The translations under genes were made by a program, and so were the position numbers. This document shows, one piece after another, positions 6,557-29,598 of a stretch of 64,000 nucleotides of DNA. Origin of the DNA: Paenibacillus aceti (lineage in GTDB: Bacteria > Bacillota > Bacilli > Paenibacillales > Paenibacillaceae). The notes under the pieces are model-generated. The model did not search any database. It was not told the DNA's origin and saw only the letters and a list, made by a program, of their open reading frames with translations. Positions within the stretch are counted from its first letter, which is position 1, and each line of letters opens with the position of its first letter. Location: NCBI RefSeq assembly GCF_003614185.1, contig NZ_KZ987724.1, positions 3,287,319 through 3,351,318 of the forward strand, in the 5' to 3' direction.

Positions 6557-6642
6557 CCTTTTCAACTCCTAAAAGTTTTGTGAGCAATGCTTCTTTGATC
6601 TACTTTCTTACGCTATTTACTTCGGTAAACAATTCATTCTTC

Positions 6643-8787: not shown

Positions 8788-11700
8788 TTAAGCTCCCGGC
8801 TGCTCGGTCAGGCTCTCTTTAACGAAAGCCTCCTCGCGCGCCACGACAGTATATAGATGGTCTCCCACCTTAACTACGCTGCCTACAGGAACAATCGCCT
8901 TCTGACCTAAAGAGACGGTTACACGATTAGCATAAACTGGCTTCTGCCCGTTATTATCGATGCCAGCCCCGTTCTTGTCCTTGGCTTCAGCTGAATCAAC
9001 GCCATTTACCGCAGTTTTATCTGACGCACCATCCGACTCATTATCTGAAGCTGCGTTTCCCGCGGTATCCTTCGTAGCTGAACCAGACTTATCGGCTCCG
9101 TTTCCTGCTTTCGTCCCCTTTTCGGCCTCTGCTCCTTTTTCAGCTTTTGTCCCTTTTTCAGTTCCAGTATCCTGTTTAGCAACCGTGCCTTTTGGGGCTT
9201 CTATACCGTCCGTATCTGCGCCATCCGTATCTTTTGACGCGACTCCGTCCGATCCATTCCCAGCTGAGCCTTTTTCACCTTTATCCAGTCCAGCCGCTTG
9301 TCCGCCCGCGGGAACCTTATCGCCAGCCTGACTCTTGTCCGAATTCTCTCCAGACATTTCGCCCGCTGCACCGCCTGCACCCGCTCCATCGCTCGGGTTG
9401 TTCGAACTGCCCGGATCCCCTGGATGATCCACACCATCTCCACTGGAATCTCCGCCACTGCCACCGATCCCGTCCACATCATCCGCACAGCTAGCTGTAA
9501 ACTTCAAATTTGCAAACTGCTGAACCGCCTGATCTGGCGACTCGATCTCCAGCGCTGAAGGAGCGAAGGCTTTGCACTTCTGCGCCTCAGCAAACTGGAA
9601 TACGAGCGAGGTCGTCTCCGCTCCATCGAGACCTGTCACATTTTCCGCATAGACGAGCACGTTGGGCTCTACCTCTGCATTTAACGGAGGAGTGGCCTCC
9701 ACAGACGGCTTGGAACCGCCGAGCAGCCCTTGCTGCTGCATCACCAAAATACCTGTAAGTACCACGAGACTAGCCACCAGAACAAGCGCAGTCACTCTGA
9801 CCTTTTTCCCGTTCTTCGCCAGAAATCGCTTGAGCGGCGAGGATAACTCCAGGCGTATTTTCGCGAATACCGCGGCCATCGGCGCCCCCGCCTTATCGAA
9901 ATAGCGGGTCCGGTAATCCCGGCTCTTGAATGCATTAGGATCATGCTTCTTGAAATAATTCAGCAAAGCAGCTGTGTAGGCTGGAGCAATTCCACGAGAA
10001 TTAGCAAATAACTCCTGCCCCTGCGACCAGAGTATGAATTCATAGATTACCTCCGGACTCTTCGCATGCTGCTGCAGATAGTTTAACAAAGCGGCATAGT
10101 CCATATTGCCGTTTTTGGGGGTGTAAAAGGCCAGAATGATCTTGCAGAACTGCGTTAGCTCAACCATCGATTGCAGCCATTCCCTCCCTAACTGCTGCAT
10201 CTGCTTCACATCTGCTGAAGGCAAGCCATTAAAGATATCTTCTGTTACCTCCCGCTGAGCGAACCACTCATATAAGGCTTGCAGCATATCGACATGCCTG
10301 CGCTGTTTGTCCTCAAGCAGCAGCCCTTCAAAAGCGTCCGGCCGCGCCAGAAAATCAGCCGTCGTAATCTGCTCGAAGGTCAGCTTGTCCAGCTTCAGCT
10401 CGTCCAGCAGCACCCGCTTGGCCGCAAGGGCGATATCGCCTGCGAGCTCGGAGTCCGCCAGAGTCATCCCGCGGTCGCCCACCGGGGTTCTCCCCCACTT
10501 GCGGACATTGTCCAGCACCATATGCACGGCGGGCAGCAACTGCTGTTCCTTCCGCAGCTTATCCTTCAAGCTGGCTACCGCATATTCCTTGAACGCCGTA
10601 TTCCGCAGCACATCAGGATGAGTGATGGCCCAGCTATGCACCACGTTTAATACTTCGCGCGCTCCGCTTGCTTCTGTAAATTTATTTTGAATAAAAGGAT
10701 CGAATAAGGCATGCTCCAACTCATTGTGCTTCATTACCAGATCAAAAAAAGCTCTGCTCAATTCAGGCTGGCTCTCCACCAAACTATATAACGGACGAGC
10801 CAATTCAACCTTGCCCCCGGCCAGGGCGTTATTGATGGCATGGATCAAATAATTAATCAGCTTGATTCCATAGCTCCGGCTATCGAGCTGATAATAATCC
10901 CGGAAGCATTCCACTACACTTAGCTCAGCCATGTTCCGCAGCTTCACCGCATCAAACTCGCGGTCAAAAGCAGCGAGAAATATATCATTGAGCCGTATTC
11001 TCGAATCCAGCGCTCCCGCAGGCTCCAGGTAGTTAAGCAAGCCACGCAACACCGTAACTTTATGGGCCTCATACAGGTCCCAATCCCCGGCTTCGATCTG
11101 GTAGAATACAGACAGCTCATGATAGCTGGACAGCAGCGTCCGGCGCTGCGAATCCATACCTGCCAGCATCTCATCTGCGAAGCGATGGAATTCCTCCAAA
11201 CGCTCGAGATCGCCTATAGACCTCCAGACCATGTCGAGATATGGCTGCCGTCCTTCATCCAGCTCATCCTGGGGCACGCGGCCGATAGAGAGATCGAACA
11301 CATAATCTTTCTCAATCTCGCGATCATTCGGGCGAATGCTGCCGCGCTCCACAAATTGCAGGTGGATAAACTTGCGGCTCTTCGGCTCCTTCGCATAAGT
11401 GATAAAGCCGAGGCGACGGCGCAGCTCGAATGGCAAGCAGGCAAATAGCACCTGAAGCAACGCCGAGGCCGAGGCGGGAATCTGCTCTGCCGGAACATCC
11501 AGCGCGACATAGACCTTCTTCCGTCCCTCGCCAACCGCAGTCATGACAGCGAACAGGAGCTGCTTGAACGTCTTCTCGTCCAGCTTCAGCTCATGCAGCA
11601 GCTTCTCAGCCATCAGACGTGGCAGACCCATCTGCGCATAACGCGGATTCTGCGGAATATCCTCCAGCTCCGGCAGCTGTCGGCCGATCTCGGGGACATA

Positions 11701-12102
11701 CATTTCCGCGAACGCCGCTTCAAGATACTCACGATAATGGGTGACGATCTCATCTTGCCGCGCAGCTGGTATGACATAGTTATGTGTCAGAAAAGCGCTG
11801 CGCAGACCGGTGAAATCAGCCGACTGGTGAATACTGCGGCCCAGCACGGTATCCCCATTCTCCGCATGGAATAAATGGAGGGCCGGCGGGAAGCTTGCGT
11901 CATCCTTCTCTCCCCGGGAGACAAGCTCTGCTGGCGCATCATATCCGCAGAATGGATGCAGTTGCTTTTTGATAAACACCGCATCCAGTCCATCCGAGAC
12001 CGCCACTGTGTCAAAGCCTTCCGTCGAACGGAAAATACCGCTCCGCTCCCGGGTGTAGATTTGCTGTTGGATCAAGTCAGGGGATGATCGCCTTATACTC
12101 AA
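8788..12102 (-). CDS. GTPase-associated protein 1 (GAP1)-like membrane protein with low-complexity tail
   Basis: This is a 1104-aa protein of unknown activity. Its N terminus (QQQIYTRERSGIFRSTEGFD, then VSDGLD and FIKKQLHPFCGYDAP) resembles, from memory, the N-terminal domain Pfam calls GAP1-N2, found beside bacterial TRAFAC GTPases. A long helical middle region follows. A single membrane segment lies near residues 769-785, preceded by a basic stretch (RFLAKNGKKVR), so the first 770 residues should be cytoplasmic. The outer part is a Gly/Asp/Ser/Lys/Ala-rich low-complexity tail (about 870-1050, with EKGTKAEKGAEAEKGTK repeats) ending in a small beta-rich domain (VTVSLGQKAIVPVGSVVKVG). The start is a TTG that overlaps the TGA of the upstream GTPase gene, so the two are translationally coupled. 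It is the last gene of the arm. Confidence 0.7.
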   Translation of the reverse strand: MSIRRSSPDLIQQQIYTRERSGIFRSTEGFDTVAVSDGLDAVFIKKQLHPFCGYDAPAELVSRGEKDDASFPPALHLFHAENGDTVLGRSIHQSADFTGLRSAFLTHNYVIPAARQDEIVTHYREYLEAAFAEMYVPEIGRQLPELEDIPQNPRYAQMGLPRLMAEKLLHELKLDEKTFKQLLFAVMTAVGEGRKKVYVALDVPAEQIPASASALLQVLFACLPFELRRRLGFITYAKEPKSRKFIHLQFVERGSIRPNDREIEKDYVFDLSIGRVPQDELDEGRQPYLDMVWRSIGDLERLEEFHRFADEMLAGMDSQRRTLLSSYHELSVFYQIEAGDWDLYEAHKVTVLRGLLNYLEPAGALDSRIRLNDIFLAAFDREFDAVKLRNMAELSVVECFRDYYQLDSRSYGIKLINYLIHAINNALAGGKVELARPLYSLVESQPELSRAFFDLVMKHNELEHALFDPFIQNKFTEASGAREVLNVVHSWAITHPDVLRNTAFKEYAVASLKDKLRKEQQLLPAVHMVLDNVRKWGRTPVGDRGMTLADSELAGDIALAAKRVLLDELKLDKLTFEQITTADFLARPDAFEGLLLEDKQRRHVDMLQALYEWFAQREVTEDIFNGLPSADVKQMQQLGREWLQSMVELTQFCKIILAFYTPKNGNMDYAALLNYLQQHAKSPEVIYEFILWSQGQELFANSRGIAPAYTAALLNYFKKHDPNAFKSRDYRTRYFDKAGAPMAAVFAKIRLELSSPLKRFLAKNGKKVRVTALVLVASLVVLTGILVMQQQGLLGGSKPSVEATPPLNAEVEPNVLVYAENVTGLDGAETTSLVFQFAEAQKCKAFAPSALEIESPDQAVQQFANLKFTASCADDVDGIGGSGGDSSGDGVDHPGDPGSSNNPSDGAGAGGAAGEMSGENSDKSQAGDKVPAGGQAAGLDKGEKGSAGNGSDGVASKDTDGADTDGIEAPKGTVAKQDTGTEKGTKAEKGAEAEKGTKAGNGADKSGSATKDTAGNAASDNESDGASDKTAVNGVDSAEAKDKNGAGIDNNGQKPVYANRVTVSLGQKAIVPVGSVVKVGDHLYTVVAREEAFVKESLTEQPGA

Positions 12103-13361
12103 AACGCCTCTCTCCCCTCAATATAGTTCAGCTTATACAGCAGCCAAATGAACGGTTCATCCACGCGAATCGGCTGCACCACGTCCTGCAGCTTCTGGTC
12201 TATCGGGTTGCTGCCGAGCGCAGATACTGCGAAATATCCCGTATCCTTAAAATATACGTCCATCGTCCCTTTGAAAGGGCGATCCACCTTTTCGATAAAA
12301 CGGCGAATTTCCCCGTCGATATTCTCGAACTCGGTCAAATTGAAATATTTACGATGCACAGCATTGTTAAATATATTACTATTCGACTTGATATACTCTC
12401 CTTCTTCATCCTTCAAGACATGCAGCATATCACTCTTCGTCAGCACTACCGCCGTCGGGATATCCGTCTTGTTCTGCTCCTCATAAGCGATGAAATCACC
12501 GAACATAGTCAGCACGACATCCCGCGGTTCATCATACTGCGATACCCATTCCCCCGGCTTGTCGCCGACATTAATGCGAATCTTCTCGCGGATCGAACGG
12601 ATCTGCAGCGGGTCCACCATGAACAGCAGACCTGAAGAATTCTTGATATGCTGCCCCTGCAGGCCCAGATAGTCCTGATCGACCATACCCTCTCCGGCGA
12701 CATCGAAAAAGACCAGCGTCAGCGGCGGTTTCGACTCATCCTTGAACACGAATTGGAAAATAAACGGCTCCTGCATCTTCTCCTTCTGCGTGGAGGCCAG
12801 CAAATCACCGCGTTCAAACAACGGCTCCTCATACATCGTGCGGAATTTGCGGCTGATCTCCGCATTGAGCGGCATGCAGGCCGCATCGAAATGATCGGCC
12901 GTCGTATTCTGGAGTGTATGAATCAATGAAGTCATATACACGGATTTCCCCACTTGGGAAGCACCGACGATCGAAATAATGTTGCTCGGCACTTTGCCTG
13001 CGGTCACCGGCAATTCATTATGGCAATGCGGACATAATCTCCGCTTGGTCACCTCGCCATAACGGTCATTCAGCCCGATCAAAACATGATCGGAATAGAT
13101 CAAATGCTCAGGCGGTACATCCTGGGGCCGCAGCACCGCCTCCATATCGTACACCGTATCCAGTCCGAACCGCTCCCGATATCTGTTCAGTTCCTCATCT
13201 TCGCCCAGCGCATAATCCTCATCATCCTCACGGTAATGAGTCGCCCGGAAGACCACCTGATCCGGGGTGAATTTGCTGAAACAGTACGGACAGACAATAT
13301 CATAAAATAACGGCCGCGGCTCGGCCTGCGGTTTCCTTTTGAATAGATCTAAGAAGCCCAT
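12099..13361 (-). CDS. Zinc-ribbon TRAFAC-type GTPase of a GTPase/tubulin/vWA system
   Basis: The 420-aa protein has two CxxC knuckles, CPYC at residues 24-27 and CPHC at 110-113, with an acidic insert (residues 45-57) between them. A GTPase core follows: G1 GASQVGKS at 133-140, G3 DVAGEG in FFDVAGEGMVDQDYLG, and G4 TKSD in VVLTKSDMLHVL. This fits the double-GTPase-like (DO-GTPase) proteins seen with GAP1 partners. The knuckles probably form one split zinc ribbon for partner or membrane-complex binding. No membrane helix is seen, so it should be cytoplasmic. It has an AGGAGG site 8 nt before ATG 13361 and overlaps the GAP1-like gene by 4 nt, which argues for a stable complex. No effector domain with known enzymatic toxicity is visible. 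Confidence 0.8.
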   Translation of the reverse strand: MGFLDLFKRKPQAEPRPLFYDIVCPYCFSKFTPDQVVFRATHYREDDEDYALGEDEELNRYRERFGLDTVYDMEAVLRPQDVPPEHLIYSDHVLIGLNDRYGEVTKRRLCPHCHNELPVTAGKVPSNIISIVGASQVGKSVYMTSLIHTLQNTTADHFDAACMPLNAEISRKFRTMYEEPLFERGDLLASTQKEKMQEPFIFQFVFKDESKPPLTLVFFDVAGEGMVDQDYLGLQGQHIKNSSGLLFMVDPLQIRSIREKIRINVGDKPGEWVSQYDEPRDVVLTMFGDFIAYEEQNKTDIPTAVVLTKSDMLHVLKDEEGEYIKSNSNIFNNAVHRKYFNLTEFENIDGEIRRFIEKVDRPFKGTMDVYFKDTGYFAVSALGSNPIDQKLQDVVQPIRVDEPFIWLLYKLNYIEGREAF

Positions 13362-13389
13362 CGTTCATTCCTCCTCGCTAGCAGTGCAT

Positions 13390-14037
13390 TTATTCCGGGA
13401 TCAGCTCAAAGAAGCGGCCATACCTGCGCCCATCCGTAAAGAATAGCCGCACATAATCGTTCTTGCCGACCTCGATAGGCGGCAACGTGCTTCTTCCCGC
13501 CGGGAAATCCCGGAGAAAAGGATACACCGTCCCGTCTTCAATGCTTGCCGGATAGCTGTCCTGCTTCTTCACATAGCATAAAACTTCCTTAGGGACCTCT
13601 ATCTCGGCTAGCACCGAGATTTGCACTGTTTTATATTTACGCAACAAGCTGCTCTTCTGCCGGATCGAATAACGGATCTTGGCCCGTCCAGTGCTGATCT
13701 CCACCGTATTCTCCGCCCCCGGCTGACGAATAAGCAGCTTCTCCCCGTTCTCCATCATGCAGGCATATACGGTGTAGACCACCAGACCGACCTTGTCGAT
13801 CCGGTCACGGTACCCGCCCGCTGCCTTATACTCTTCGCGCGTATACAGTCTCAGACCCTCGCTCGGGGATGGATATTCATCCATCCCGTACGATCCGCGA
13901 TCCGCTGATCGCTCCTCGATATAGACCGCCTGCAATCCATCTGGCCATTGCCAGCGGAGCAAACAATGATCCTCATCGAGCTTGTAGCTCAGCCCTGTGA
14001 TGAGCGGCAAGCCGTCCTCAGCATCAATATAACGCAT
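13390..14037 (-). CDS. Uncharacterised 215-aa beta-rich protein of the GTPase/tubulin system
   Basis: No family is recognised. The protein lacks a signal peptide and membrane helices. It alternates short hydrophobic strands with polar turns (CLLRWQWPDGLQAVYIEER, GLVVYTVYACM, YVRLFFTDGRRYGRFFELI), which suggests one or two beta-sandwich domains of the fibronectin type. The gene lies 27 nt before the GTPase and 20 nt after the second vWA gene in the same direction, with an AAGGGGG site before ATG 14037. It is therefore part of the operon and probably a scaffold or adaptor of the complex. This role is inferred from context only. Confidence 0.65.
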   Translation of the reverse strand: MRYIDAEDGLPLITGLSYKLDEDHCLLRWQWPDGLQAVYIEERSADRGSYGMDEYPSPSEGLRLYTREEYKAAGGYRDRIDKVGLVVYTVYACMMENGEKLLIRQPGAENTVEISTGRAKIRYSIRQKSSLLRKYKTVQISVLAEIEVPKEVLCYVKKQDSYPASIEDGTVYPFLRDFPAGRSTLPPIEVGKNDYVRLFFTDGRRYGRFFELIPE

Positions 14038-14057
14038 CGCTTCGCCCCCTTACGCCT

Positions 14058-15344
14058 TTAAAATCCTCTGCTGTTCCGGTCCCTGGCAGGCTCTGTATAT
14101 CCTGCTCCAGCATTCCTCACCGCAGCTCCTCTACGGCGAATTCCGGTTCGTACAGCATTCTCATGCATCGGCACCACGACCGTGAACATCGTCGTGACCG
14201 CTGCCAGAACCAGACAGGCGAGCAAGCGGATCATCACATCGCCGATAAAGCTGCCATTCAGGCCGAATTCCAGCAGCAGACCAGCAAGCAGGCCGGATAC
14301 AGCGCCGCCGATCGTGAAGCTCTTAGCCAAATAGCGATTATCGAACATGAGACCCAGAGATAAGCCGATAAGTGCCCCGAGCAGCAGAACGAGTACAATT
14401 CTCAGAATCATGTAATAAACGCTGTTCTCCATCATCCCGGTGCGTTCCGTAACTAATGTACGATCATCCAGATTGTCATAAATTTGCCGGAAAACAAAGG
14501 ACAGATTCTTCGCATCGGCCTCGTCATAATACCGTCCTCCCGTCTCGCTGGCGATATCCTTAAGCAGAGTGGCCCCTGCGGAATTTCCATATCGGCTAAG
14601 TCCAAGACCCACTGTGTTGATAACGACTCCCCGCTCCTGATAATCCGCTAGAACTTCGGCCGTATTCACATCGCTGAAGCCATCAGACAGCAGCACAGCC
14701 ATCGCTCCTTTGGAGCTGTTCAGCCCTTTCAGCTGATCCATCCCCAATTCCAGAGCCGAGGCGATATCCGTACCAGCATTCGTCGGCTCCAGCGCATCGA
14801 TAGCCGCATATACTTCATCCTTCACCCCTTGACCCTTAACCTGGACAAAAGGCTGGATTAACTCAGGTGCGTCATTGAATACAATAACGGATACCTGCTT
14901 ACTGCTATCCATCTGCTCCACGAATGATTTGGCCGCTTCATAACGCAGATCCTCCGGGTCCGTCTCCAGCATACTGCCGGAGTTATCAATGATCAGCACG
15001 ATGTCCTTGGTCGTCTTGGCACGGCCGACATTCAGTTCATATAAGAATTCAAAGGCCGTTCCAGCCAGAAGCAGCATCACCAGTGTAGCCGGGATTAACA
15101 GCTTCCAGGAGGTCCCCATATACCTTTGCCGCCAGGATGCTCCGTTCAACCGCGGAGAGATCATCTCCGCGATCAGGCAGAATAGCCCGATCGATAGGGC
15201 AAGTATGCCGAAATACAGACCGATCAATAAGATTTCCGGCATCCGGCCAGAGAGTCTGCCTAACAGTACCTCGCCGATTACGAACCCGACCGCCCCGCCA
15301 ATAAGGCTGAATAGCACCAATAGCCAGTTAATTTTACGCTGCAT
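14058..15344 (-). CDS. Membrane vWA-domain protein (second vWA of the system)
   Basis: In this 428-aa protein three N-terminal membrane segments (about 7-27, 38-60 and 82-103) precede a von Willebrand A domain. The MIDAS starts DNSGS at 120-124, and later parts include GTDIAS and VLLSDGFSD. Three more hydrophobic segments follow from about residue 315 to 400, then a basic cytoplasmic tail. The positive-inside rule (basic loop before the third segment) puts the vWA domain outside the cytoplasmic membrane. vWA domains bind ligands through a MIDAS-held metal. The gene lies between the IS30 copy and the 215-aa gene. An AGGAAGGA site precedes the ATG, but the promoter side now abuts the IS element 26 bp upstream, so expression may have changed. 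Confidence 0.85.
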   Translation of the reverse strand: MQRKINWLLVLFSLIGGAVGFVIGEVLLGRLSGRMPEILLIGLYFGILALSIGLFCLIAEMISPRLNGASWRQRYMGTSWKLLIPATLVMLLLAGTAFEFLYELNVGRAKTTKDIVLIIDNSGSMLETDPEDLRYEAAKSFVEQMDSSKQVSVIVFNDAPELIQPFVQVKGQGVKDEVYAAIDALEPTNAGTDIASALELGMDQLKGLNSSKGAMAVLLSDGFSDVNTAEVLADYQERGVVINTVGLGLSRYGNSAGATLLKDIASETGGRYYDEADAKNLSFVFRQIYDNLDDRTLVTERTGMMENSVYYMILRIVLVLLLGALIGLSLGLMFDNRYLAKSFTIGGAVSGLLAGLLLEFGLNGSFIGDVMIRLLACLVLAAVTTMFTVVVPMHENAVRTGIRRRGAAVRNAGAGYTEPARDRNSRGF

Positions 15345-15370
15345 ATACGTACTTCCTTCCTACCATTTTT

Positions 15371-16460
15371 ATATGACGGATTGTCAAGGCAAGTGCGACA
15401 GTTCCTCTGAAAAAGATTCGCGAGCGGTTCTCCATCCCAGACATTTTCGTGGTCTGTGGTTAATCAGATCAAGAGCATGGTGTAAAGCCTCGTCCGTAAC
15501 TTGAGCGAAGTCCGTTCCTTTGGGAAAAAACTCTCGCAAGAGGCCGTTGGCGTTCTCATTGGAGCCTCGTTGCCAGGAGGAATACGGATCAGCAAAGTAC
15601 ACCTGTATGCTATGGGTGGCCTCCAGATTGGTGTAGCAAGCAAACTCCTTGCCACGATCTGCTGTAGCGGTTTGAAAGGCTCCGATAGGATACTCAGAAG
15701 CAACTACACCAAAAGCGATCTCCATAGACAACGCTGTGCGGTCTGGCATCCGAATGGCTTTGTACAAGCGCGTTTTACGCTCAATGAACGTAGCTACACA
15801 GCCCTTGCTTTTCCCACGGCCTGAGACCACCGTATCGAGTTCCCAATGACCAAACGTTTCCCGAGACCGTACCTCTTTGGGACGCTGAGAGATAGACTTG
15901 CCCACGGTAAACTTGCCACGCGTCTCAGCAGGCTTCTGCCGCTTGCCTTTGTGTCTGAGAACGGTGAGGATGCCTTTGGACAACAGGCCCGCGTACAGCC
16001 AGCGATAGATCGTTTTAAAGCATACGATGGCTTGCTTCTCCTGCCGAAACCGCTGTGTGATCTGCTCCGGAGACCAGGTGGCCTGAAGCTTCTCTTCGAT
16101 GACTCTAGCCAGCTCCGGCGTCCACTTGCCTTCGGGAACCGAGGTTTTACGACGCTGGGTATAGCTCTCCTGGGCTCGCTGTGCACCATAGGTCTCCTGA
16201 CCCTCGTGACGCTCCAGTTCACGGCTGATGGTGGAATGATGTCTGCCGAGCTCTCTGGCAATCGCTCTGGCACTTTTCCCCTGCTGGTGGAGGATTTCTA
16301 GCTTGCTGCGCTCGATTATGCTAAGATGTGTGTAGTTCATGGTGGATTCTCCTTGTGTGAATGTAGGGTGTAGGAACTTTCATTCTACACGAATCCGGCC
16401 ATGGGCTCTTTTTTATTTATTTCCAGCAGGTGTCGCACTTCATTTTACAATCCGTCATAT
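15371..16460 (-). mobile_element. IS30-family insertion sequence
   Basis: Terminal inverted repeats of about 30 bp bound the element: the left end starts ATATGACGGATTGT and contains AAGTGCGACA, and the right end is its reverse complement with 26 of 30 positions matching. The flanking ATAT could be either the outer end of the repeats or a 4-bp target duplication, because ATAT is its own complement. The element is about 1.09 kb with one transposase gene. It sits in the spacer between two genes of the GTPase/tubulin system and has the same orientation as the arm. Confidence 0.9.
15384..16340 (-). CDS. IS30-family transposase
   Basis: The 318-aa product is intact. An N-terminal helix-turn-helix (LSIIERSKLEILHQQGKSAR then AIARELGRHHSTISREL) is followed by a DDE catalytic domain with GHWELDTVVSG (first Asp), TADRGKEFA (second Asp) and NENANGLLREFFPKGTDF (Glu region), all IS30 hallmarks. 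The length is normal and no frameshift is seen, so the copy is probably active or recently was. Confidence 0.95.
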   Translation of the reverse strand: MNYTHLSIIERSKLEILHQQGKSARAIARELGRHHSTISRELERHEGQETYGAQRAQESYTQRRKTSVPEGKWTPELARVIEEKLQATWSPEQITQRFRQEKQAIVCFKTIYRWLYAGLLSKGILTVLRHKGKRQKPAETRGKFTVGKSISQRPKEVRSRETFGHWELDTVVSGRGKSKGCVATFIERKTRLYKAIRMPDRTALSMEIAFGVVASEYPIGAFQTATADRGKEFACYTNLEATHSIQVYFADPYSSWQRGSNENANGLLREFFPKGTDFAQVTDEALHHALDLINHRPRKCLGWRTARESFSEELSHLP

Positions 16461-16533
16461 ACATGCAAGAGCTCCTCCAATGACCCCATCATCGCAGCCA
16501 TCGGAGGGAACCACAGCAAGTCTACGCAGGCGA

Positions 16534-18912: not shown

Positions 18913-21900
18913 TTCAGCCTTCTGCGAATATCGTTGAGATTCGCGGACACCTGTTTGTAGAACTGATACATATCTTCTCCGTTGGCCAGCTCCACCTTCT
19001 CATATTCCAGCGAGTCCCGCCCCTCCTGGAATCGTTCGGCCAGCTCATCCAGCGTCTGCAGCAGTGGCTGAATATCTTCGGTAGCCGTAAGCTCGGCAGC
19101 GCGGCGAGACGCTTTGCGCATCAAGGTGCTGCGACTCTTCTCATCCAAGCCATGGAAGTGCATGAACACTTCATATTCCACATAGTTGCGGCTCTTCATC
19201 AGATTCGCGAACGGCTCCCATGCCTCTTCCTCCGGATCACGGTCATAGACATAGAGCGCGCCTTTTTTCGTAATCGTTCCAGTATAGAACGCCTCGATGA
19301 ACTGCTCTAGCCACTTCTCTTCGTCCTGATGCTGCTCCAGCACCGCTTCCAGCTTGGCAGCCATAGCCATAATCTCGTCGTACTTGGCGATCTCCTGCCG
19401 TACACGAATAATCAATTCAGGGGAACGAATCAGGTTCTCCTTGGCTAAATCCCCGTTAATACTGCCGAAAATGTCCTTGTCTCCCTCCCGCGGCAGCCCT
19501 TCTGTCAACAGCCGTCTGAGTTCATCTGTCGCCCGCTTCACTTCGCCCAAATTCGGCTTCGGCGCATCGAGACGCATATCATAAGCCGCCAGCATGTTAT
19601 TCAAATCGAACGGCTTCGTCAACACCACCGAATAACGATTGCTCGTATTGTGATCGACATCCTTCTCAAGGATTACCTTCAGCTTAAGTGCCTTGTCAAA
19701 CTCTTCGCGTACGCGCGCGTTATAGCCCTGCACCCGCGAGTTGACGTAGGTGTCGCCCCAGGATTTCTCCGGAATTGGCGAAGGCAGATACGTCCAGTTA
19801 TTCTTGTCCGTCTGCACCAGATGGCGGCCAATCCCTTCTTTATCGAGAATCGTCCGTTCATAGCTCTCTTCATAGACCTTCAGCGGCGTATAGACGAATA
19901 ATGGCACCCCGTTGCGCGTGTTCAGCCAGAATATTCTGTTCTTCACTTCGCTTTCCTTCACCGTGAAATGGGATTTACCAACCGCATTATTCTGATAATT
20001 GCGAATCCCTTTGAGAATGCTCGGCGCCTGGGTTGGAACCGATACGAAGCCCCAGGAAGGGAAGTGCAGATTGCCTGTGCTGTTGGACAAATGGAAGACA
20101 GGAACCGCCTCCTCATCCAGCTTGCTGGCAATGAAGCGCTCGACGAACTTCTCGATCGACTCGTCCTGCCCGTATTTGATGACCAGGAAATCCTCCATCG
20201 ACTTCGTAATGAGATCCCCGAATTTCTCGGTCAGGAAGTCGGAAATGGAGCTGACGATATCGATTTCCTGCTCCTTCACCCATTGATTGGAGTTATTCAG
20301 CAGCTCCATAGAGAAGTCGCGGATCAAATCATCGACATCCTTCTGGTCCATAATGCTGCTGACCACCTTGGATATGTCAGGTACGCTGACGATATTCCAA
20401 TAGTAGGTTTTATTCCCTTTATGATCGACCTGCTCATCACCGCTCGTCAGAATGTCGCCATTCTTGGAGAAAATCGAGCTCAGCGCGTTCAAAATTTCCG
20501 TAAACACCCCATAGATCCGGTTATTCTCCGAGTTCAGCAGCTGATACAGATCCTCATAGAATTCAATCATCTGTTCTGTACGCTCAACATCGGCATGCAG
20601 CCAATACTCATTGATCTTGGCTTCAATATACGCATTCTTCTTCTTCTCTTTAGAGACGAATGCACTCTTGGCATCGCCCAGCTTCTCATTCGCCTGATCC
20701 TGCGCGGCCTCAATGTCACGCGGGATGCGCAGCAGGTTCTCCCGCAGTGCTTCGATGTAGGAGAGCAGCATCTTGAGCAGACAGAAGCCTTTTTCCGTAT
20801 AGATCAAGCGGGACACGTAGAACGGCCCTTGCTCCGGATGCAGGAATAGCCGGCGAATCTGCTCGCTGAATTGCTCCAGCATCTCGCCTGGCAGCTGCTT
20901 CTTGGCCTTGATATACTCCTCTCTTGCCCGGGCCAGGAAGGTCTGCTCCAGCTCTGTGTCCATATTCACAACCTGGGATTTAACAACATTAGCGTAGCTC
21001 AAGCGCTCACTATTCTCGAAGCCCGGCAATGGCTCAGGAACCCGGGACTCGAACGTCTTCACCATACTATCCAGGTCGATCCCCAGCTTACGGGCGAACT
21101 TCTCGACATCTTCCTGGCTCGGCGCTTGCCGGAACATCTTCTCCATCTTCTCGAACAGCCGGTACGCCAAATACGTCGTCATTTCCTCGATCGGCAGGAC
21201 AGCCGAAGAGGCACCGATAATGTTATATTCATAATTCGCCGGATATACCTTGTTCATCTGAGCGATATTCGTGCGAATATTGCTGATATAATCATGGATG
21301 GCAAATTCCTCGCCGGACTGCTTCTCTTCGCTGGCCATGAAATTCGTAATATTCTCTGCGGTAACATTCATGCAATAGTCATAAGCATTCTCGAGCAGCT
21401 TGCCCTCGGTATTCGTCGCCGAGATCAAATGGCAGAGATTAAACGGCGGCAGCGGAGAATTAACGGTAAGGATATTGCCGTACTGCTGCTTGAACCGCTC
21501 ACCGCGATTATCTACGTTCATCCAGTAATCGAGCTCTTTCAGCGCGGCATAGCCGTTCTTCTTGATATATTCGCGCGTATGCTCGCTCAAGCTCTTGTTG
21601 GACAAGTTAATGTCCGGCGTGAACAAATAGCCGAGCGTATTCACCCGGTCGATCCCGGCCGAGCCGTGATCACGCTCGATAATGCCGCGGACGATATAAG
21701 CGATGTCGAGGAAGCAGCCGCTTCCTGTACCGCCGGACAAGCCGGTCAGCAGGAATACCATCAGCTTCTTATTCGTACCTACGGACAGCGTCTTGATCTT
21801 CTTGTCGATGGCCTGCACAACCTGATTGATCTTCGTGAACAAGAGGAGCCGTCCTGCTTGACGCACTCCCGCCGCTCCATTCATCCCATCGGTGATACTA

Positions 21901-22298
21901 AGCTCCGGCGACAGCCAATCCGTAATATAAGGCTCCAAAATGCTGCGATTCTGCAGCAATCCGCCGATTTCCGGATTCGACAGCAGCACGAATTCATTGA
22001 TCGGATCGAGCCCGATTCCCTTATAACGCTTCGTCCGATCCTGCTCATTCGTCTCGAAGGCGAGGAATTCTACATTGTCGGGCTTGTCACGTCTCTTCTT
22101 AGTCAGCGGGTCCTCCGGCAGCTTGAAGCGTCTGTTGATTTGATATTTCAGCCGCAGCAAGGCATCGATGCCTGTTCCGCCAAGGCCGATGATAAGGATC
22201 GGATTGTCGATGGTATCGACACGGATCTTGTCGCTGACGATCCCTCCCCCCAGCGATACGTCCAATTGCTGAATATGTTCTCTGACTATCGGTTTCAT
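18909..22298 (-). CDS. Large tubulin/FtsZ-like GTPase (Tubulin_2-type)
   Basis: The 1129-aa protein begins with a tubulin-like nucleotide fold. NPILIIGLGGTGIDALL (residues 32-48) is the T1 region, and TGLSGGTGSGCF (about 185-196) is the T4 tubulin signature GGTGSG. Strands such as EFLAFETNEQD also match the fold. From about residue 400 onward it is a long helical extension with no recognised domain, far larger than FtsZ or TubZ. This build matches the bacterial family Pfam names Tubulin_2, recalled from memory. It should bind GTP and may form filaments or a scaffold in the cytoplasm. It lies 18 nt after the secreted vWA gene and overlaps the 792-aa gene. The T7 catalytic loop was not identified, so hydrolysis is unproven. 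Confidence 0.85.
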   Translation of the reverse strand: MKPIVREHIQQLDVSLGGGIVSDKIRVDTIDNPILIIGLGGTGIDALLRLKYQINRRFKLPEDPLTKKRRDKPDNVEFLAFETNEQDRTKRYKGIGLDPINEFVLLSNPEIGGLLQNRSILEPYITDWLSPELSITDGMNGAAGVRQAGRLLLFTKINQVVQAIDKKIKTLSVGTNKKLMVFLLTGLSGGTGSGCFLDIAYIVRGIIERDHGSAGIDRVNTLGYLFTPDINLSNKSLSEHTREYIKKNGYAALKELDYWMNVDNRGERFKQQYGNILTVNSPLPPFNLCHLISATNTEGKLLENAYDYCMNVTAENITNFMASEEKQSGEEFAIHDYISNIRTNIAQMNKVYPANYEYNIIGASSAVLPIEEMTTYLAYRLFEKMEKMFRQAPSQEDVEKFARKLGIDLDSMVKTFESRVPEPLPGFENSERLSYANVVKSQVVNMDTELEQTFLARAREEYIKAKKQLPGEMLEQFSEQIRRLFLHPEQGPFYVSRLIYTEKGFCLLKMLLSYIEALRENLLRIPRDIEAAQDQANEKLGDAKSAFVSKEKKKNAYIEAKINEYWLHADVERTEQMIEFYEDLYQLLNSENNRIYGVFTEILNALSSIFSKNGDILTSGDEQVDHKGNKTYYWNIVSVPDISKVVSSIMDQKDVDDLIRDFSMELLNNSNQWVKEQEIDIVSSISDFLTEKFGDLITKSMEDFLVIKYGQDESIEKFVERFIASKLDEEAVPVFHLSNSTGNLHFPSWGFVSVPTQAPSILKGIRNYQNNAVGKSHFTVKESEVKNRIFWLNTRNGVPLFVYTPLKVYEESYERTILDKEGIGRHLVQTDKNNWTYLPSPIPEKSWGDTYVNSRVQGYNARVREEFDKALKLKVILEKDVDHNTSNRYSVVLTKPFDLNNMLAAYDMRLDAPKPNLGEVKRATDELRRLLTEGLPREGDKDIFGSINGDLAKENLIRSPELIIRVRQEIAKYDEIMAMAAKLEAVLEQHQDEEKWLEQFIEAFYTGTITKKGALYVYDRDPEEEAWEPFANLMKSRNYVEYEVFMHFHGLDEKSRSTLMRKASRRAAELTATEDIQPLLQTLDELAERFQEGRDSLEYEKVELANGEDMYQFYKQVSANLNDIRRRLK

Positions 22299-22316
22299 AT
22301 ACTCTCCCCCTCAAAT

Positions 22317-24155
22317 TTATACCAGGTACTCTATGAAAATCGTCTTATCAATATGCTGCAGCGGCAGGGTAATTCTATCTCCGCTCTTCAGCTCCAAGCC
22401 CGCGCTGGCATCTACGACCCGGCCGGACTTCTCGACCTGGGCTTCTGAACCGTTGCGCAGCATGATCTTGTCCCCCTTCGCCGGCGTAAAGATAACCTTC
22501 TCGGTCTCCTTCAGCTCTGGCGCGAGCTGCAGCAGCTGATGCAAGTTGAACTTGCCCTTGAACGAGGTCAGCTTCTTATACTGCGGGAAGGACTTCTCAT
22601 TTGTGTTCTCGTCGCGGATTTCTATGACGATCTGCCCGACGAAGCCGCGATTGGCCTTCTTCACCGCCGTCGCAATGAAATAACCGGCTGCCCCCAGCAC
22701 AGCCAAGGATACGACCGCGATCACCCAGGTTAGCCATGGGAATGGCTTCTCCTCCTCAGGCGCCGCTGGTACGGACGGCTTCGCCGCAGCTCCCGAAGCT
22801 GAATTAGCTTTGGCACTGATCGTAACCGGCTCCGATTCCCGGTAGAAGCTGCGCTCTTCAGCACGTATCTTCAACTCATAATCATGGGCTTCGGGAATTT
22901 TAAAGCTTCCCTCGAAGCGGTCGCCTACATTGTTCAGCTTGATTTCCTCCGTCTTGCCGCTGTCGATATCCTTGGCGAGCAGAACGGCCTTCATGTTCTT
23001 GTATAATTCGGCGCTTTTCAGCTTCTGGCCGTTGCTATTCAGATAGGCGCCGATCTGCAGCTTATCGCCAGGCTTATGGCTTCCAGCCGCGAGCGGCTCC
23101 ATCTCCAGCTCCAAGTCGTAGTTGAACACGAGGTTAATGTCGATCTTGTCCTTGGAAGCCCCCTTAACTCGCAGCTTCCAATCTCCCTCCGCCGGACTCA
23201 GCATCTTAATGAGAGAGTAGCTCTTCGACTTCGACAGCAGTACCTCATCCGAAGGAATCGCTACCTTGTCCCCGGCCGGGTTCACCAACTCCGTCTCTAC
23301 CGGCTGTGCCGACATGATCGAAATATTCGCTTCCAGCACATTCGCATTCGGCACGTTGACCGTAACCTCCTGGAAGCTGCCTGTACCGGTCATGCTCTTG
23401 ATCGGCACAATCTTCAGCTTCAGATGACTGGCGAATATCTCGCTGAGGATGCGCGGGAGATCATCCGCCGAGCTGGTAGAGAAGGACTTGGCGTCTGTCT
23501 GCTTGGCCAAATCCTCCAGCGGCGCTTTGTTCAGCTTGCCATCGGCATTCAGCCCGATCGTATAGATGGGAATGCCTGCGGCCTTCGCTTCATCAACAGA
23601 TTTGGCGAGCTCTTGATCGGAGGCCTTCTGCGTACGGCCAGAGCTCTTGTTGAAGTCATTATTGCCGTCCGCCAGCAGAACGATCATCGGTTCGTGGTTC
23701 GGATCAGCGCCCTTTTGCAGGACCTTCACCGCTTCCTTGACTCCGATAGCGATATCGGTGTAGGGACCTCTATCGAGGCCATCGATGAAATCCTTCAGAT
23801 CCTGTTTATCTTCAGGGCCTTTGATTTCAAGCAATGCCTTCTCGCGCTGGACCTTATCCGTATAGGCGATAATTCCTACCTTATCCCCTTGCGCAGACAG
23901 CATATCGATGAACATCTTCATCGCTTCATTGCCGACTTTATTCGCGTCACTCTTCTTCATAGAGTTACTTACGTCGACAACGAGTACAGCATCGATTCGC
24001 GAGCTGGGCTGACTCCCTTGGCTTCCCTGACCTGCTTGACTCCCGTTCGCGGCTGACACGGCTCCAAGCATATGGGAACCCAGTGTAGACACGAGTAACC
24101 AAAAGACTATGAAAACCGTTAATATACGTAAAGACTGCTTATATCCTTGCTGCAT
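22317..24155 (-). CDS. Signal-peptide vWA protein with C-terminal membrane anchor
   Basis: In this 612-aa protein a signal peptide (about 1-36) and a Gly/Ser/Gln linker lead to a vWA domain with a full MIDAS start, DVSNS at 61-65, and VLLADGNND further on. Beta-rich segments follow. A single membrane helix lies at about 474-498, flanked by KKANR, and a 109-residue cytoplasmic domain ends the protein (GQIVIEIRDENT ... ITLPLQHIDKTIFIEYLV), which could be a FHA-like or beta-grasp fold. The vWA domain is thus outside and a readout domain inside. It is the first gene of the leftward arm, with an AAAGGAGC site before the ATG. It probably reports an outer signal to the cytoplasmic tubulin/GTPase modules. 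Confidence 0.87.
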   Translation of the reverse strand: MQQGYKQSLRILTVFIVFWLLVSTLGSHMLGAVSAANGSQAGQGSQGSQPSSRIDAVLVVDVSNSMKKSDANKVGNEAMKMFIDMLSAQGDKVGIIAYTDKVQREKALLEIKGPEDKQDLKDFIDGLDRGPYTDIAIGVKEAVKVLQKGADPNHEPMIVLLADGNNDFNKSSGRTQKASDQELAKSVDEAKAAGIPIYTIGLNADGKLNKAPLEDLAKQTDAKSFSTSSADDLPRILSEIFASHLKLKIVPIKSMTGTGSFQEVTVNVPNANVLEANISIMSAQPVETELVNPAGDKVAIPSDEVLLSKSKSYSLIKMLSPAEGDWKLRVKGASKDKIDINLVFNYDLELEMEPLAAGSHKPGDKLQIGAYLNSNGQKLKSAELYKNMKAVLLAKDIDSGKTEEIKLNNVGDRFEGSFKIPEAHDYELKIRAEERSFYRESEPVTISAKANSASGAAAKPSVPAAPEEEKPFPWLTWVIAVVSLAVLGAAGYFIATAVKKANRGFVGQIVIEIRDENTNEKSFPQYKKLTSFKGKFNLHQLLQLAPELKETEKVIFTPAKGDKIMLRNGSEAQVEKSGRVVDASAGLELKSGDRITLPLQHIDKTIFIEYLV

Positions 24156-24390
24156 GATCGTGCTCCTTTATTCATTTTTAAGATTCATATAAACTAGAGG
24201 TAGTTCAAAAGTCCGCATTTGAAAAGATCCCTGAAATAATCTCTATATCATTGTAATCAACATTCCTTAAGAAAAGGTTAAGAGGTTGTTGAATTTCGGC
24301 TCGCTTTATTCGTCAAATTCTACCAATCTTCTCGATGCCCATATGATATAATTAATACCTTCATAATTCAATTACGAAAGGAAACTGCAT
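24156..24390. promoter_or_regulatory. Divergent promoter region of the GTPase/tubulin system
   Basis: The 235-bp spacer separates the two arms. A TATAAT hexamer at 24347-24352 is well placed for the rightward arm (about 40 nt before ATG 24391). For the leftward arm a TTGATT-like -35 can be proposed near 24260, but its -10 is weak. A short inverted repeat, CTTAA-N7-TTAAG, sits near 24267-24285. No coding frame is present. Confidence 0.45.
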
Positions 24391-24540
24391 ATGGTTACAT
24401 ACGGATGCCTGGCTCTTATGTTTCTATTCGTTATCATTAAGTCCATTCTATACTACACGCGCAGAAACAACATCATCGCTCCTGAAGAGCTCGATGAACA
24501 ATTGCTGCAGCTTATCAACCATAAAGAGAGAATGCCATGA
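24391..24540 (+). CDS. 49-aa single-span membrane peptide
   Basis: This is a short gene with a GAAAGGAAA site and ATG at 24391. The product starts MVTYGCLALMFLFVIIKSIL, one membrane helix, followed by a polar tail (YYTRRNN ... EELDEQLLQLINHKERMP) expected in the cytoplasm. Its TGA overlaps the ATG of the next gene (ATGA at 24537-24540), so it is translationally coupled to the zinc-ribbon membrane protein. It opens the rightward arm. The tight coupling and clean ribosome site make it a real gene despite its size. It may be a small assembly factor of the membrane complex; that is inference. Confidence 0.75.
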   Translation: MVTYGCLALMFLFVIIKSILYYTRRNNIIAPEELDEQLLQLINHKERMP

Positions 24541-25487
24541 ATAAGAAAAATATAGTATTGCGTCCTCCAATAAAGACGAAGTATGCCTATGAAAAGTTAA
24601 GATGCTGCAATAAATGTCATAATTACACCGCGCTCCAGGAGGAGAACTGTAGCATCTGCGGCAAGTCTGCCCTTCTGCCGATGCTGGAGGTTGCCAAGCG
24701 TGCAGCCAAACGCTCGATGGGAAACGATCTGCTGTTGACCTTGCTGCTGACGCTGCTCTCGATAATATTCAGCCCGACTCTGCAATGGGTGATCATATCG
24801 GCGATAACCGGAGCTGTGCTGCTGGTAGTATTCGTGATCGTGCATCGTATAGCACTGCCCAGCCGGACATCCATCGAGCTGAGCAAAATATTCGTCCGCG
24901 ACCGCGATCGCATCGCTGAGGGGCTGCTGCGTAATCTCGATACTGCTGTCGCGCAAGAGAACGAAGCCCGCTCCTATGAATTGATGCGAGAAATAGCCGC
25001 CATCATTCACGATGACCATATTCGTAAATTGCAAATCATTCTTCTGCAGTCGCTCAAGCTGCGCAAAGATATGGAGTTGGAACTGGAGCCGCTGCTGGTG
25101 AAGGACTTCGACCCGGAGCTGGCCGACTACATCGGTGAGCTCGCCAAAATCAAACGCGAGCTGATCAAAGACCACACCTTCCAGTATGTGATCAAATACG
25201 AGGCGAAAATCTCCGTGATGGAGCATGGAGACGACATTCTCACCGGAGTTGCTGGAGCAGCAGTAAGAATGAAACGCTATGTACTGGCCTATGCCGACTT
25301 CATCTCCCGTCACGCCCGCAAGCTACCCAAGGACCGATTCCTGCGACTATACCGAATCGTCATGGAGAACCCTAATTTAAATTGGGGAGCGCTCAAAGCA
25401 GAGACCGTACGAGTCTATGAAGAGAAATACCAGTGGGATGCCGATTTTCAACAAATAAAATCGAGGTCTAATATACATGACGTTTAA
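24537..25487 (+). CDS. Zinc-ribbon two-helix membrane protein of the GTPase/tubulin system
   Basis: In the 316-aa product an N-terminal zinc ribbon (CNKCHNY ... CSICGK, residues about 23-42) is followed by a basic stretch, two membrane helices in a tight hairpin (about 61-103), and a helical C-terminal region of about 200 residues. Both ends should face the cytoplasm. No enzyme motif is seen. It overlaps the upstream 49-aa gene by 4 nt and the downstream gene by 11 nt. The zinc ribbon recalls the split zinc knuckles of the GTPase in the other arm, so a shared docking mode is possible. No family was recognised. Confidence 0.72.
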   Translation: MNKKNIVLRPPIKTKYAYEKLRCCNKCHNYTALQEENCSICGKSALLPMLEVAKRAAKRSMGNDLLLTLLLTLLSIIFSPTLQWVIISAITGAVLLVVFVIVHRIALPSRTSIELSKIFVRDRDRIAEGLLRNLDTAVAQENEARSYELMREIAAIIHDDHIRKLQIILLQSLKLRKDMELELEPLLVKDFDPELADYIGELAKIKRELIKDHTFQYVIKYEAKISVMEHGDDILTGVAGAAVRMKRYVLAYADFISRHARKLPKDRFLRLYRIVMENPNLNWGALKAETVRVYEEKYQWDADFQQIKSRSNIHDV

Positions 25488-27291
25488 AAAATGGTTAACC
25501 CTGCACCATCTGCTCATTTTATTATGTCTATTATTGATTCCACTGCTTATTTACAAAGGAATAGGAATTTCTCAGAAAGTAAGTGCTGTTAAAAAGGCTG
25601 AGGTCTTCTATGGGGAGAAAAATCTGATCGATGCGGAGACCTGGTATCAAGAAGCCCAAAAGAACAGAATGATTCAATATAAGGAAGAGCTGATCGCCTC
25701 TCGATTAGAGGAATTAGCGCCGATCACAGCGATAAAGGACAGCTTGTCCAATATTGCCTCGGAGGCCTCCAAGGCGGCCCATAAAAAAGATTTCGAACAT
25801 CTGATGACCGCCTATACCGAGCTTAAGCAGGTCCGCAGCACCTACCTCAAGGCTGAGGGAGTCTACAGCGAGTATTATAAGCAGCTCTCCAAGCAATACG
25901 GGATCTCGCATAGCTTCACGGACTATTTCCAGCAATTCCGCACCGATCTGTTGAAGCAGTCGCAGCAAAATTTAACCCACCATAATTATGAGAACGAGTC
26001 GTTCAAATGGAAGCTGCTGCGTATCCCCGCCCATTTCTTCGGCACCGAGCAAGAATGGCTCGATGAGCTAAACTCCGTGTTCAAGCAGTACGATGAGGCT
26101 AAGCTGGAGAACCTCGCGACACGCGGAGATATAGAGAATATGCTGCGGCATACCTCCTCGATGCTGAAAGAATACAAGGAACATAGCCATGAGGCTCCCT
26201 GGGTGACAGCCAAGATGGACGCCCTGATGCAGACACAGTTCAATCAGGACTGGAGCCGTGAGGATTACGCCGCCTTCGCCCAGCATGCGCGCCAATTTGA
26301 TACTTTCGCCAGCTCGGCCAATCCCCATTCCAAGGTGCTGACCTACGCCAAGCAGGGGATCGATAAATTGCTGCGCTCCGCCGAGAAGAGTGTGAGAAGC
26401 AGAGATTATCAGACAGCGATCGATCTGTATACGGCGCTCGGTAATTATCAGGATACTAAAGCAGATATCCACGCGGTCGAACTGGCCTGGACAGCCGCCG
26501 AGCCTGTGAGGCTACTGCCTGCACTTAACAATGGGGAAGGATATAAGCATGTTGCCGGAGGGGTAAAAAGATTCGGCTCCAGCATTTACGTCGCTGCTAC
26601 CGATGTGAATAATCAGCTATTCTTTGGCCGCATGAATAATGAGGAAAGTGTGCAAATCTTATCAAATCGGGACTTAACAGCGAACGAGCAAATCCGCAGC
26701 CTGAATATAGATCCGAATCTGAGCACCTCGGACATTCCCGTCGTGACCATCGAAGCGGAGTCTAAGACGCGAACCACACTCTATATCGCTTTTGAAGTGC
26801 TCGAGGATCGTATTTCGCTGCTATATTGGATTGAGGCGGATGACTTAAGTATCCAGACGGACGGAACACTGCAGGTCGTTAATCCAATCGGGGAGGGCGA
26901 GGGGCAGACTGCTATTTTTGAACGTTATGGCGATACCTATCAATTCATCGGAATCAAGCAGGAGTTCAAGGACATCGCCGCCGATGATGTCAGCTTATAT
27001 CCCGATATGCTCGTCCGCTTCACCTGTACAGTCATTTCCCCGAGGACGGGAGAGGCGCTTGCTCAGGGTGAGCAAGGCCATATGATACTCCAGGGCGATC
27101 TCACCTTCAACGAAGGGAAGGCTGTTGTCATTGGGCGCTTTACGCATTACACCGAGCTGATGACCGAGGTTCAGCCTGGGGAAGAAGGCACGGAACCCAA
27201 TGCAAGCTCACCTGATGAGCCTGCTTCAGGCCAACCCGCCACCCAAACCATACGTGTCCCCGTCATCAAAGTAGAGTCCGTGAAGCAATGA
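25477..27291 (+). CDS. Membrane-anchored 604-aa protein with helical repeats
   Basis: The protein begins with a short basic N terminus and one uncleaved membrane helix (LLILLCLLLIPLLIYKGIGI, residues about 12-31), so the rest should be outside. Residues 35-330 are helical with repeat-like segments (KKAEVFYGEKNLIDAETWYQ, RDYQTAIDLYTALGNYQDTK), suggesting TPR-like or coiled-coil packing. From about 345 on the sequence is beta-rich, and the last 35 residues are Pro/Glu/Ser/Thr-rich. The gene overlaps the zinc-ribbon gene by 11 nt and ends the rightward arm. It may be the outer structural partner of the vWA proteins. No known family was recognised. Confidence 0.7.
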   Translation: MTFKKWLTLHHLLILLCLLLIPLLIYKGIGISQKVSAVKKAEVFYGEKNLIDAETWYQEAQKNRMIQYKEELIASRLEELAPITAIKDSLSNIASEASKAAHKKDFEHLMTAYTELKQVRSTYLKAEGVYSEYYKQLSKQYGISHSFTDYFQQFRTDLLKQSQQNLTHHNYENESFKWKLLRIPAHFFGTEQEWLDELNSVFKQYDEAKLENLATRGDIENMLRHTSSMLKEYKEHSHEAPWVTAKMDALMQTQFNQDWSREDYAAFAQHARQFDTFASSANPHSKVLTYAKQGIDKLLRSAEKSVRSRDYQTAIDLYTALGNYQDTKADIHAVELAWTAAEPVRLLPALNNGEGYKHVAGGVKRFGSSIYVAATDVNNQLFFGRMNNEESVQILSNRDLTANEQIRSLNIDPNLSTSDIPVVTIEAESKTRTTLYIAFEVLEDRISLLYWIEADDLSIQTDGTLQVVNPIGEGEGQTAIFERYGDTYQFIGIKQEFKDIAADDVSLYPDMLVRFTCTVISPRTGEALAQGEQGHMILQGDLTFNEGKAVVIGRFTHYTELMTEVQPGEEGTEPNASSPDEPASGQPATQTIRVPVIKVESVKQ

Positions 27292-28161: not shown

Positions 28162-28174
28162 TCTCAACTTCCCC

Positions 28175-29578: not shown

Positions 29579-29598
29579 CTTTTGATTGGTCCCTGCTC

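Follow-up and report, generated by a model that had tools for sequence, protein, structure and literature searches.

Gene content of the locus

The 64,000-nt stretch of Paenibacillus aceti DNA analysed here (contig NZ_KZ987724.1, positions 3,287,319 to 3,351,318; "the window", to which positions refer unless another locus is named) contains a divergent gene block that encodes two proteins of tubulin type, a GTPase, a GAP1 protein and two vWA proteins. The genome is 5.6 Mb in size, and the closest named relatives of the tubulin are from Paenibacillus, e.g. P. ihumii, P. bouchesdurhonensis and P. fonticola (94-95% identity). An earlier note, made from the DNA letters, had counted ten genes in two divergent arms. 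An open reading frame (ORF) check of the window found all ten at the coordinates noted, and the tight packing was also seen, neighbouring ORFs overlapping slightly at 12099-12102, at 18909-18912 and at 25477-25487. The count itself had to be revised, as the ORF at 15384-16340 encodes an IS30 transposase without match in relatives, which leaves nine large system genes, and a gene for a 49-aa (amino acid) peptide had been overlooked (Table 1). Leftward from 24155, the minus arm comprises the genes for vWA612, the 1129-aa tubulin, the 792-aa protein, the IS30 insertion, vWA428, the 215-aa protein, the 420-aa DO-GTPase and the 1104-aa GAP1 protein, while the plus arm carries the genes for the 49-aa peptide, for a zinc-ribbon-like membrane protein of 316 aa and for a protein of 604 aa.

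The domains suggested by the earlier note were recovered by Pfam above the curated cut-offs: Tubulin_2 in the 1129-aa protein (2e-77), GAP1-N2 (149.8 bits, 6e-44) and GAP1-M (103.8 bits, 7e-30; cut-off 24) in the 1104-aa protein, DO-GTPase2 in the 420-aa protein (29.3 bits against a cut-off of 27, 8.5e-7) and VWA in both vWA proteins (1e-18 and 1e-17). Likewise, the motifs it had read (GGTGSG of the tubulin, G1/G3/G4 and the CxxC pairs of the GTPase, both DxSxS) are kept in 89-98 homologues. Two of the proteins it had left without a family could be assigned, the 792-aa protein to a predicted degenerate tubulin and the 318-aa ORF to the IS30 transposase; three proteins have no recognised domain. 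No NCBIfam family reached its cut-off for any system protein. Transmembrane (TM) topology of all block proteins was predicted by hydropathy scan only.

Table 1. Features of the divergent block and its insertion (window positions)
Feature	Position	Strand	Basis
GAP1 (GAP1-N2 + GAP1-M, one TM, polar extension), 1104 aa	8788..12102	-	Pfam, hydropathy
DO-GTPase, 420 aa, two CxxC pairs, GASQVGKS, DVAGEG, TKSD	12099..13361	-	Pfam, motifs
215-aa protein, at the position that the FNIII component has in Kaur et al.; fn3 not matched	13390..14037	-	Pfam
vWA428, multi-TM, DxSxS metal ion-dependent adhesion site (MIDAS)	14058..15344	-	Pfam, hydropathy, motif
IS30-family insertion, not part of the system	15370..16461 (transposase 15384-16340)	-	NF033563, inverted repeats
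792-aa pseudo-tubulin (predicted fold)	16534..18912	-	Profile comparison, predicted fold, motif loss
Active-type tubulin (Tubulin_2/FtsZl1), 1129 aa, GGTGSG	18909..22298	-	Pfam 2e-77
vWA612, N-terminal TM/signal + TM + tail	22317..24155	-	Pfam, hydropathy
Probable bidirectional promoter	24340..24371	.	Promoter scan, conserved 13-mer
49-aa single-TM peptide gene (ATG to stop)	24391..24540	+	Profile, dN < dS
Zinc-ribbon-like protein, 316 aa, two predicted TM	24537..25487	+	Locus survey, hydropathy
604-aa N-terminally anchored protein, predicted outward, accessory	25477..27291	+	Locus survey, SH3/TPR searches, hydropathy

A predicted pseudo-tubulin beside an active-type tubulin

All 98 sequences of the 1129-aa tubulin keep D336 and those glycines of T1 and T4 that were checked, and the T4 loop region contains five or six glycines in each of them; a relative of solved structure was not found for it by sequence. 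Residues 150-162 of the 792-aa protein are free of glycine in 91 of 97 sequences and hold a single one in the other six. Comparison of the N-terminal profiles of both proteins (97-98 rows) gave a probability of 62% (E 7e-5), full-length profiles gave 11% (E 0.003), the C-terminal halves 0.3%, and a shallow comparison with 11 rows each led to 1% (E 0.05). The 792-aa protein is predicted to begin with a tubulin/FtsZ fold that lacks the GTP loop, which is followed by a long helical middle and a conserved C-terminus. A first AF2 model of the full protein from 11 rows showed long helices with residues 176-319 poorly modelled and was not used for the fold search. As the glycine-rich T4 GTP loop is missing, the protein appears to have a tubulin fold without being an active tubulin. 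On the predicted structure it is a degenerate tubulin with an N-terminal nucleotide-binding fold of the tubulin type (hereafter pseudo-tubulin), which probably neither binds GTP nor supplies the T7 acid to a neighbouring subunit, T7 having been compared by eye. In the related locus L028, the N-terminal part of the pseudo-tubulin (about 12380-12650 of that locus) has a long low-complexity repeat insertion in the variable loop near residue 80.

GAP1, GTPase, vWA and 215-aa proteins

The GAP1 protein has a predicted TM helix at aa 770-788 with the conserved domains in front of it and a low-complexity polar extension behind. It is the least conserved of eight core genes (mean pairwise identity 39%, 76 genomes), and the extension shows 21% identity to the window in 68/90. 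The DO-GTPase has no TM segment by hydropathy, keeps CPYC/CPHC and DVAGEG in 89 homologues and reaches a mean pairwise identity of 82%. Three TM segments are predicted on either side of the vWA domain of vWA428, and vWA612 is predicted to have an N-terminal TM/signal, an outward vWA and beta domain, a TM segment at aa 478-496 and a cytoplasmic tail. This tail has a median identity of 70% to the window, and the median identity of the vWA domain is 72%; of 32 homologous sequences, 20 matched MG2 and 30 a beta domain of hemicentin type. The 215-aa protein gave no convincing match to the PDB by sequence.

The divergent arm and the promoter region

The 49-aa peptide, whose gene overlaps the start codon of the zinc-ribbon gene by 4 nt, consists of one hydrophobic stretch followed by a basic and then an acidic/polar tail. 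A profile made from 78 copies detected it in 104/104 intergenic regions from 97 distinct genomes, always on the same strand, with 78 of the 104 matching by construction and the weakest (L026, L052) at E 0.001; a strict pattern was passed by 89/104. Among nine close copies, the nonsynonymous rate (dN) was below the synonymous rate (dS) in all 35 of the 36 pairs in which dS was computable, and pairs with the window gave dN 0.12-0.23 and dS 0.32-1.77. Besides its two predicted TM segments, the zinc-ribbon-like protein has four cysteines (C24, C27, C38, C41) and a helical domain. The domain search returned weak zinc-ribbon matches only, and the matches to solved structures, at E 0.29 or worse, were mostly zinc-ribbon proteins. 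Its gene is a fixed component of the system, as seen from its occurrence described below.

The third product of the arm, the 604-aa protein, is predicted to have an N-terminal anchor with the remainder facing outward, and some homologues show weak TPR matches. In family f32, which we take to be Brevibacillaceae as an unconfirmed guess, a C-terminal SH3_3 domain was found above cut-off in 6/6 homologues tested (L156-L158, L160-L162); across 30 sequences SH3_3 was matched in seven, and an SH3 domain was not matched in the homologue from family f21 or in three from the window's order. Comparison of the 604-aa profile with structures gave two weak SH3-type matches (E 0.012 and 0.32). The C-terminal tip varies by lineage: it is SH3 in f32, and for the Paenibacillus members tested no domain was recognised there.

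Both arms had been said to share a promoter region, and this region does hold a conserved, nearly symmetric element. The 13-mer ATTATATCATAAT was found with at most two mismatches in 72 of the 100 intergenic regions scanned (out of 104), compared to 2.0 in single-base shuffles (five rounds). In the window, TTGAAT-17-TATCAT is a probable promoter of sigma-A type facing the vWA/tubulin arm, and TTGAA stands 17 nt before TATCAT in 41 of the 45 rows listed, counted by eye. A simple scan also places the promoter at 24371-24343, although one such site is the chance level for the region alone. Read in the opposite direction, the element gives TGATATAAT, which overlaps TTGAAT-17-TATCAT, faces the peptide/zinc-ribbon arm and is presumably an extended -10. 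With a sigma-A promoter in one direction and an extended -10 in the other, both arms probably start from a single, nearly symmetric element. A PhoP-type direct repeat in the same region was rejected, since spacers of 5 and 7 nt were both enriched about twofold.

Conservation and distribution

Gene order and divergent layout are the same in 15/15 relatives, of which 14 have the 604-aa gene. A second set, sharing seven genomes with the first, comprises the best 80 of 304 confirmed stretches from 84,980 species genomes and is a close one, all members being at least 81% identical. In these loci, tblastn detected vWA612, the tubulin and the 792-aa protein in all 80, the zinc-ribbon protein in 78, and vWA428, the 215-aa protein, the GTPase and GAP1 in 77 each; the 604-aa protein was found in 37. 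Apart from the 604-aa gene, misses are confined to L114, L121 and L126, whose contigs stop early. The 604-aa gene itself was missed in 43 loci, three of which (L065, L114, L126) reach a contig end at this place, and L095 and L120 have a short frame only. Ten loci from two further families, nine from f32 and one from f21 (L159, in a genome with 8% contamination), contain all nine genes by profile, with vWA428 found in 9/10 by plain blastp. The genes therefore travel together as the earlier note had supposed, in the 80 loci up to the limits of the contigs.

Across the class, the tubulin was found in 61/398 genomes and 8/145 genera. In a sample of 148 genomes of the family, the tubulin, the zinc-ribbon protein and GAP1-N2 each occurred in 71, with one match each and identical genome lists, and SdhA, which served as rate control, was present in 148/148. 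Nineteen of the 71 zinc-ribbon matches cross one stop codon, taken as the end of the frame, GAP1 frames are short in genomes G491 and G515, and GAP1 and tubulin of G384 lie on different contigs. Counted by hand, five genera are complete (60/60), three are mixed (4/15, 5/7 and 1/13), one has 1/1 and ten have none (0/52); a separate sample of the window's own genus gave the tubulin in 14/24. The block is a single-copy chromosomal cassette, all-or-none in the family sample, and from its absence in ten genera the system is dispensable.

Pairwise identities of the eight core genes correlate with r 0.80-0.96 in the 76 genomes, a calculation that includes no outside control gene, and the means for tubulin and GTPase are 80-82%. 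Both are kept about as well as a core metabolic enzyme; no function of the system was found in the literature searched. The window tubulin is 70-73% identical to that of families of other orders and 68-69% to that of another family of its own order, and the genera nearest by SdhA differ from those nearest by tubulin. Because of this mismatch, strictly vertical inheritance is not claimed.

The IS30 element is an intruder, seen at the block in this genome only. Its transposase (NF033563, 308 bits, 5e-92) had no match in the 15 relatives or the 80 loci, and its terminal inverted repeats of 31 nt (15370-15400 and 16431-16461) place it between the 792-aa gene and the vWA428 gene, whose ribosome-binding site (by eye) and ATG stay outside the element. 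Six copies exist in this genome, five with identical protein and one with a stop codon, which suggests recent activity.

Outside the block, gene families recur within single clades only (90 loci clustered); the commonest flanking family, in 16/90 loci, is a helicase in one species group. To the right of the block the loci are short, and the commonest downstream gene of the 15 relatives is present in seven. In the downstream stretches of 7/15 relatives (L032-L036, L038, L040), GAP1 is followed, with no change of strand, by a protein of 197-223 aa whose start resembles a P-loop by eye. To the left of the cassette, the window has succinate dehydrogenase-like genes (4811-7308, minus strand) and a LysR-type regulator (7575-8477, plus strand), all by eye. 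On the other side lies a c-di-AMP riboswitch (29587-29742, minus strand, RF00379, 100 bits), downstream of which we presume a potassium uptake pair of KtrB/KtrA type (27490-29521). Neither the potassium uptake nor the succinate dehydrogenase genes were found in the flanks of the 80 loci, and both are therefore taken as incidental. A SAM riboswitch is located at 62299-62452 (minus strand, RF00162, 77 bits).

A possible outside-in switch

We propose, with an even chance in our estimation, that the block encodes a membrane-spanning switch which works from the outside in and controls tubulin assembly under the membrane. What the analysis shows is the gene set and its domains, the predicted fold and motif loss of the pseudo-tubulin, the co-occurrence of the genes and the conserved promoter element; the topology (from hydropathy), the state of T7 (by eye), the order of signalling, the polymer, its capping and the output are inferred. 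On the outside, both vWA proteins, whose metal sites are intact, and in lineages that have it the 604-aa protein with its putative TPR part, with or without SH3, would touch the wall or an external ligand. From there a signal might pass inward through the vWA cytoplasmic tail, the GAP1 TM helix, and the zinc-ribbon protein together with the small TM peptide, and would end at the soluble DO-GTPase, which as a switch would control GTP-dependent assembly of the tubulin beneath the membrane. The pseudo-tubulin may cap, seed or anchor the polymer and would not lengthen it. The output could be a local change in envelope or surface behaviour and not phage-specific killing, each named output being less probable than the switch itself. 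More doubtful is an obligate pairing of the two tubulins as unlike partners, by which the dead subunit, having lost GTP binding and the T7 acid for good, would fix one end of each filament to the membrane/wall complex. If true, this would be a tubulin machine with polarity and length set by a built-in dead subunit, controlled by a GTPase switch that is read from outside by vWA domains. The earlier note had proposed a nucleoside triphosphate-driven machine across the envelope; the predicted anatomy fits, with cytoplasmic GTPases, outward vWA domains and TPR/SH3 in some lineages, and any work done across the envelope would be hypothetical.

Several observations weigh against the proposed switch. 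The Foldseek TM-scores of the pseudo-tubulin are modest (0.33-0.38), and its list of matches is mixed with unrelated nucleotide-binding folds. GAP1-C was not matched by Pfam in the window GAP1, the region being present and poorly conserved (35%), YtkA was not among the 25 families shown for vWA612 homologues, and fn3 was not matched in the family of the 215-aa protein (44 sequences, E 0.05). Roughly half of the 80 loci lack the 604-aa gene, and its product in the window gave no match to SH3. For the FtsZl1 group of tubulins, the text of Makarova and Koonin (2010; PMC2875224) states that T6-H7 elements are not identifiable and does not demonstrate polymerisation. A knockout phenotype is available for Sll0445 of Synechocystis, a remote relative in another gene context whose mutant also affects photosystem II (PMC9880817), and direct functional data for the present subtype were not found in the open-access literature.

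The strongest rival is a conflict system against phages or other invaders, normally off, in which outward parts would sense an invader and GTPase and tubulin would assemble into a structure for defence or cell suicide. Kaur et al. (2020; PMC7159879) read the whole class in this sense, according to their text from a constant core, variable parts, mobile neighbourhoods and a multicellular habit. The rapid evolution of the GAP1 extension and of the 604-aa protein, which is altered or lost in lineages, would suit a conflict sensor, and the system is distributed patchily, both from genus to genus and inside three genera. The vWA domain of vWA612, however, is not fast-evolving, PADLOC models fit no better than chance (lowest E among the system genes 0.007, in a partial match), and Pfam and NCBIfam recognised no toxic or nuclease effector in the block, of which three proteins are without a recognised domain. 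In addition, phage records gave no match and the sole plasmid match is remote (27% identity over 27% of the tubulin). A slow core, one copy per genome, fixation in five genera, no phage and only this remote plasmid match fit a resident physiological function better than an arms race, and we regard the conflict reading as unlikely. Somewhat less likely still is membrane remodelling or vesicle formation, proposed for FtsZl1 by Makarova and Koonin (PMC2875224): the block has the same tubulin family, vWA and GTPase partners and several membrane proteins, but Pfam recognised no membrane-bending domain, and a referee in the text of that paper held location and filament formation to be unsettled. We consider improbable, and the least likely of the three, an apparatus for motility or the positioning of pili, in which the tubulin would steer or drive surface appendages or spreading over surfaces. 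As far as the text of PMC12313861 goes, a mutant defective in its pili shows deregulation of Sll0445 and Sll0446; the limits of Sll0445 as a model given above apply here as well, and the lack of families recurring around the block beyond single clades also speaks against such an apparatus. The results weaken the idea of a fast-evolving defence system for this subtype, and the parts list (dead tubulin, zinc-ribbon partner and peptide, a tip in one lineage that would bind the wall, symmetric promoter element, exact co-occurrence) makes the label "conflict system" testable.

Comparison with known systems

By its domain composition the system is a GAP1-N2 GTPase-centric system of the firmicute tubulin theme, with a tubulin of the FtsZl1 group. 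The computational survey referred to in the earlier note corresponds to that of Kaur et al. (2020; PMC7159879), to whose DO-GTPase and GAP1-N2 names no follow-up was found in the open-access literature. According to its text, the firmicute form has two tubulin genes, both with a tubulin domain and a helical/coiled-coil C-terminus, two vWA genes, of which one is multi-TM with its vWA domain outside and the other is fused to YtkA, an FNIII protein, a DO-GTPase with N-terminal zinc ribbon(s) and a Walker B glutamate, and a GAP1 protein with GAP1-N2/GAP1-M plus GAP1-C and a polar C-terminal extension; SH3-type wall-binding domains occur in the wider class. The window shares the DO-GTPase, GAP1-N2/M with polar extension, two tubulin and two vWA genes and a further small protein. 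As two vWA genes are already part of the published form, they do not make the distinct variant that had been suspected. The divergent arm is not mentioned in that text and may stand in its tables or Figure 6, so that priority for the arm is uncertain. Relative to the text of Kaur et al. and of PMC2875224, the peptide, the degenerate second tubulin without GTP loop, the promoter element and the all-or-none, single-copy distribution in the family sample are also new, and the IS30 insertion was seen in this genome only.

The FtsZl1/Tubulin_2 clusters, whose alignment includes Brevibacillus brevis (PMC2875224), resemble the block in the FtsZ-like N-terminal domain, GGTGSG, long C-terminal region and vWA and GTPase partners. 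In the text of that paper they also contain an OmpA-type protein and a protein kinase, neither of which Pfam recognised in the block, whereas the block has two tubulins, one of them degenerate by its predicted fold. Synechocystis sll0445-sll0447 (PMC9880817), compared by description only, likewise contains a Tubulin_2 protein, here with FtsA-like and DivIC-like partners instead of GAP1, DO-GTPase and vWA. The history of Tubulin_2 is separate from that of canonical tubulins in the text of PMC9871819.

Eukaryotic alpha/beta tubulin is a pair with division of labour. Both this pair and, as described, Asgard AtubA/B2 have two unlike tubulin-fold subunits encoded together, as would the present block, which differs from them in that one subunit lacks the GTP loop altogether.

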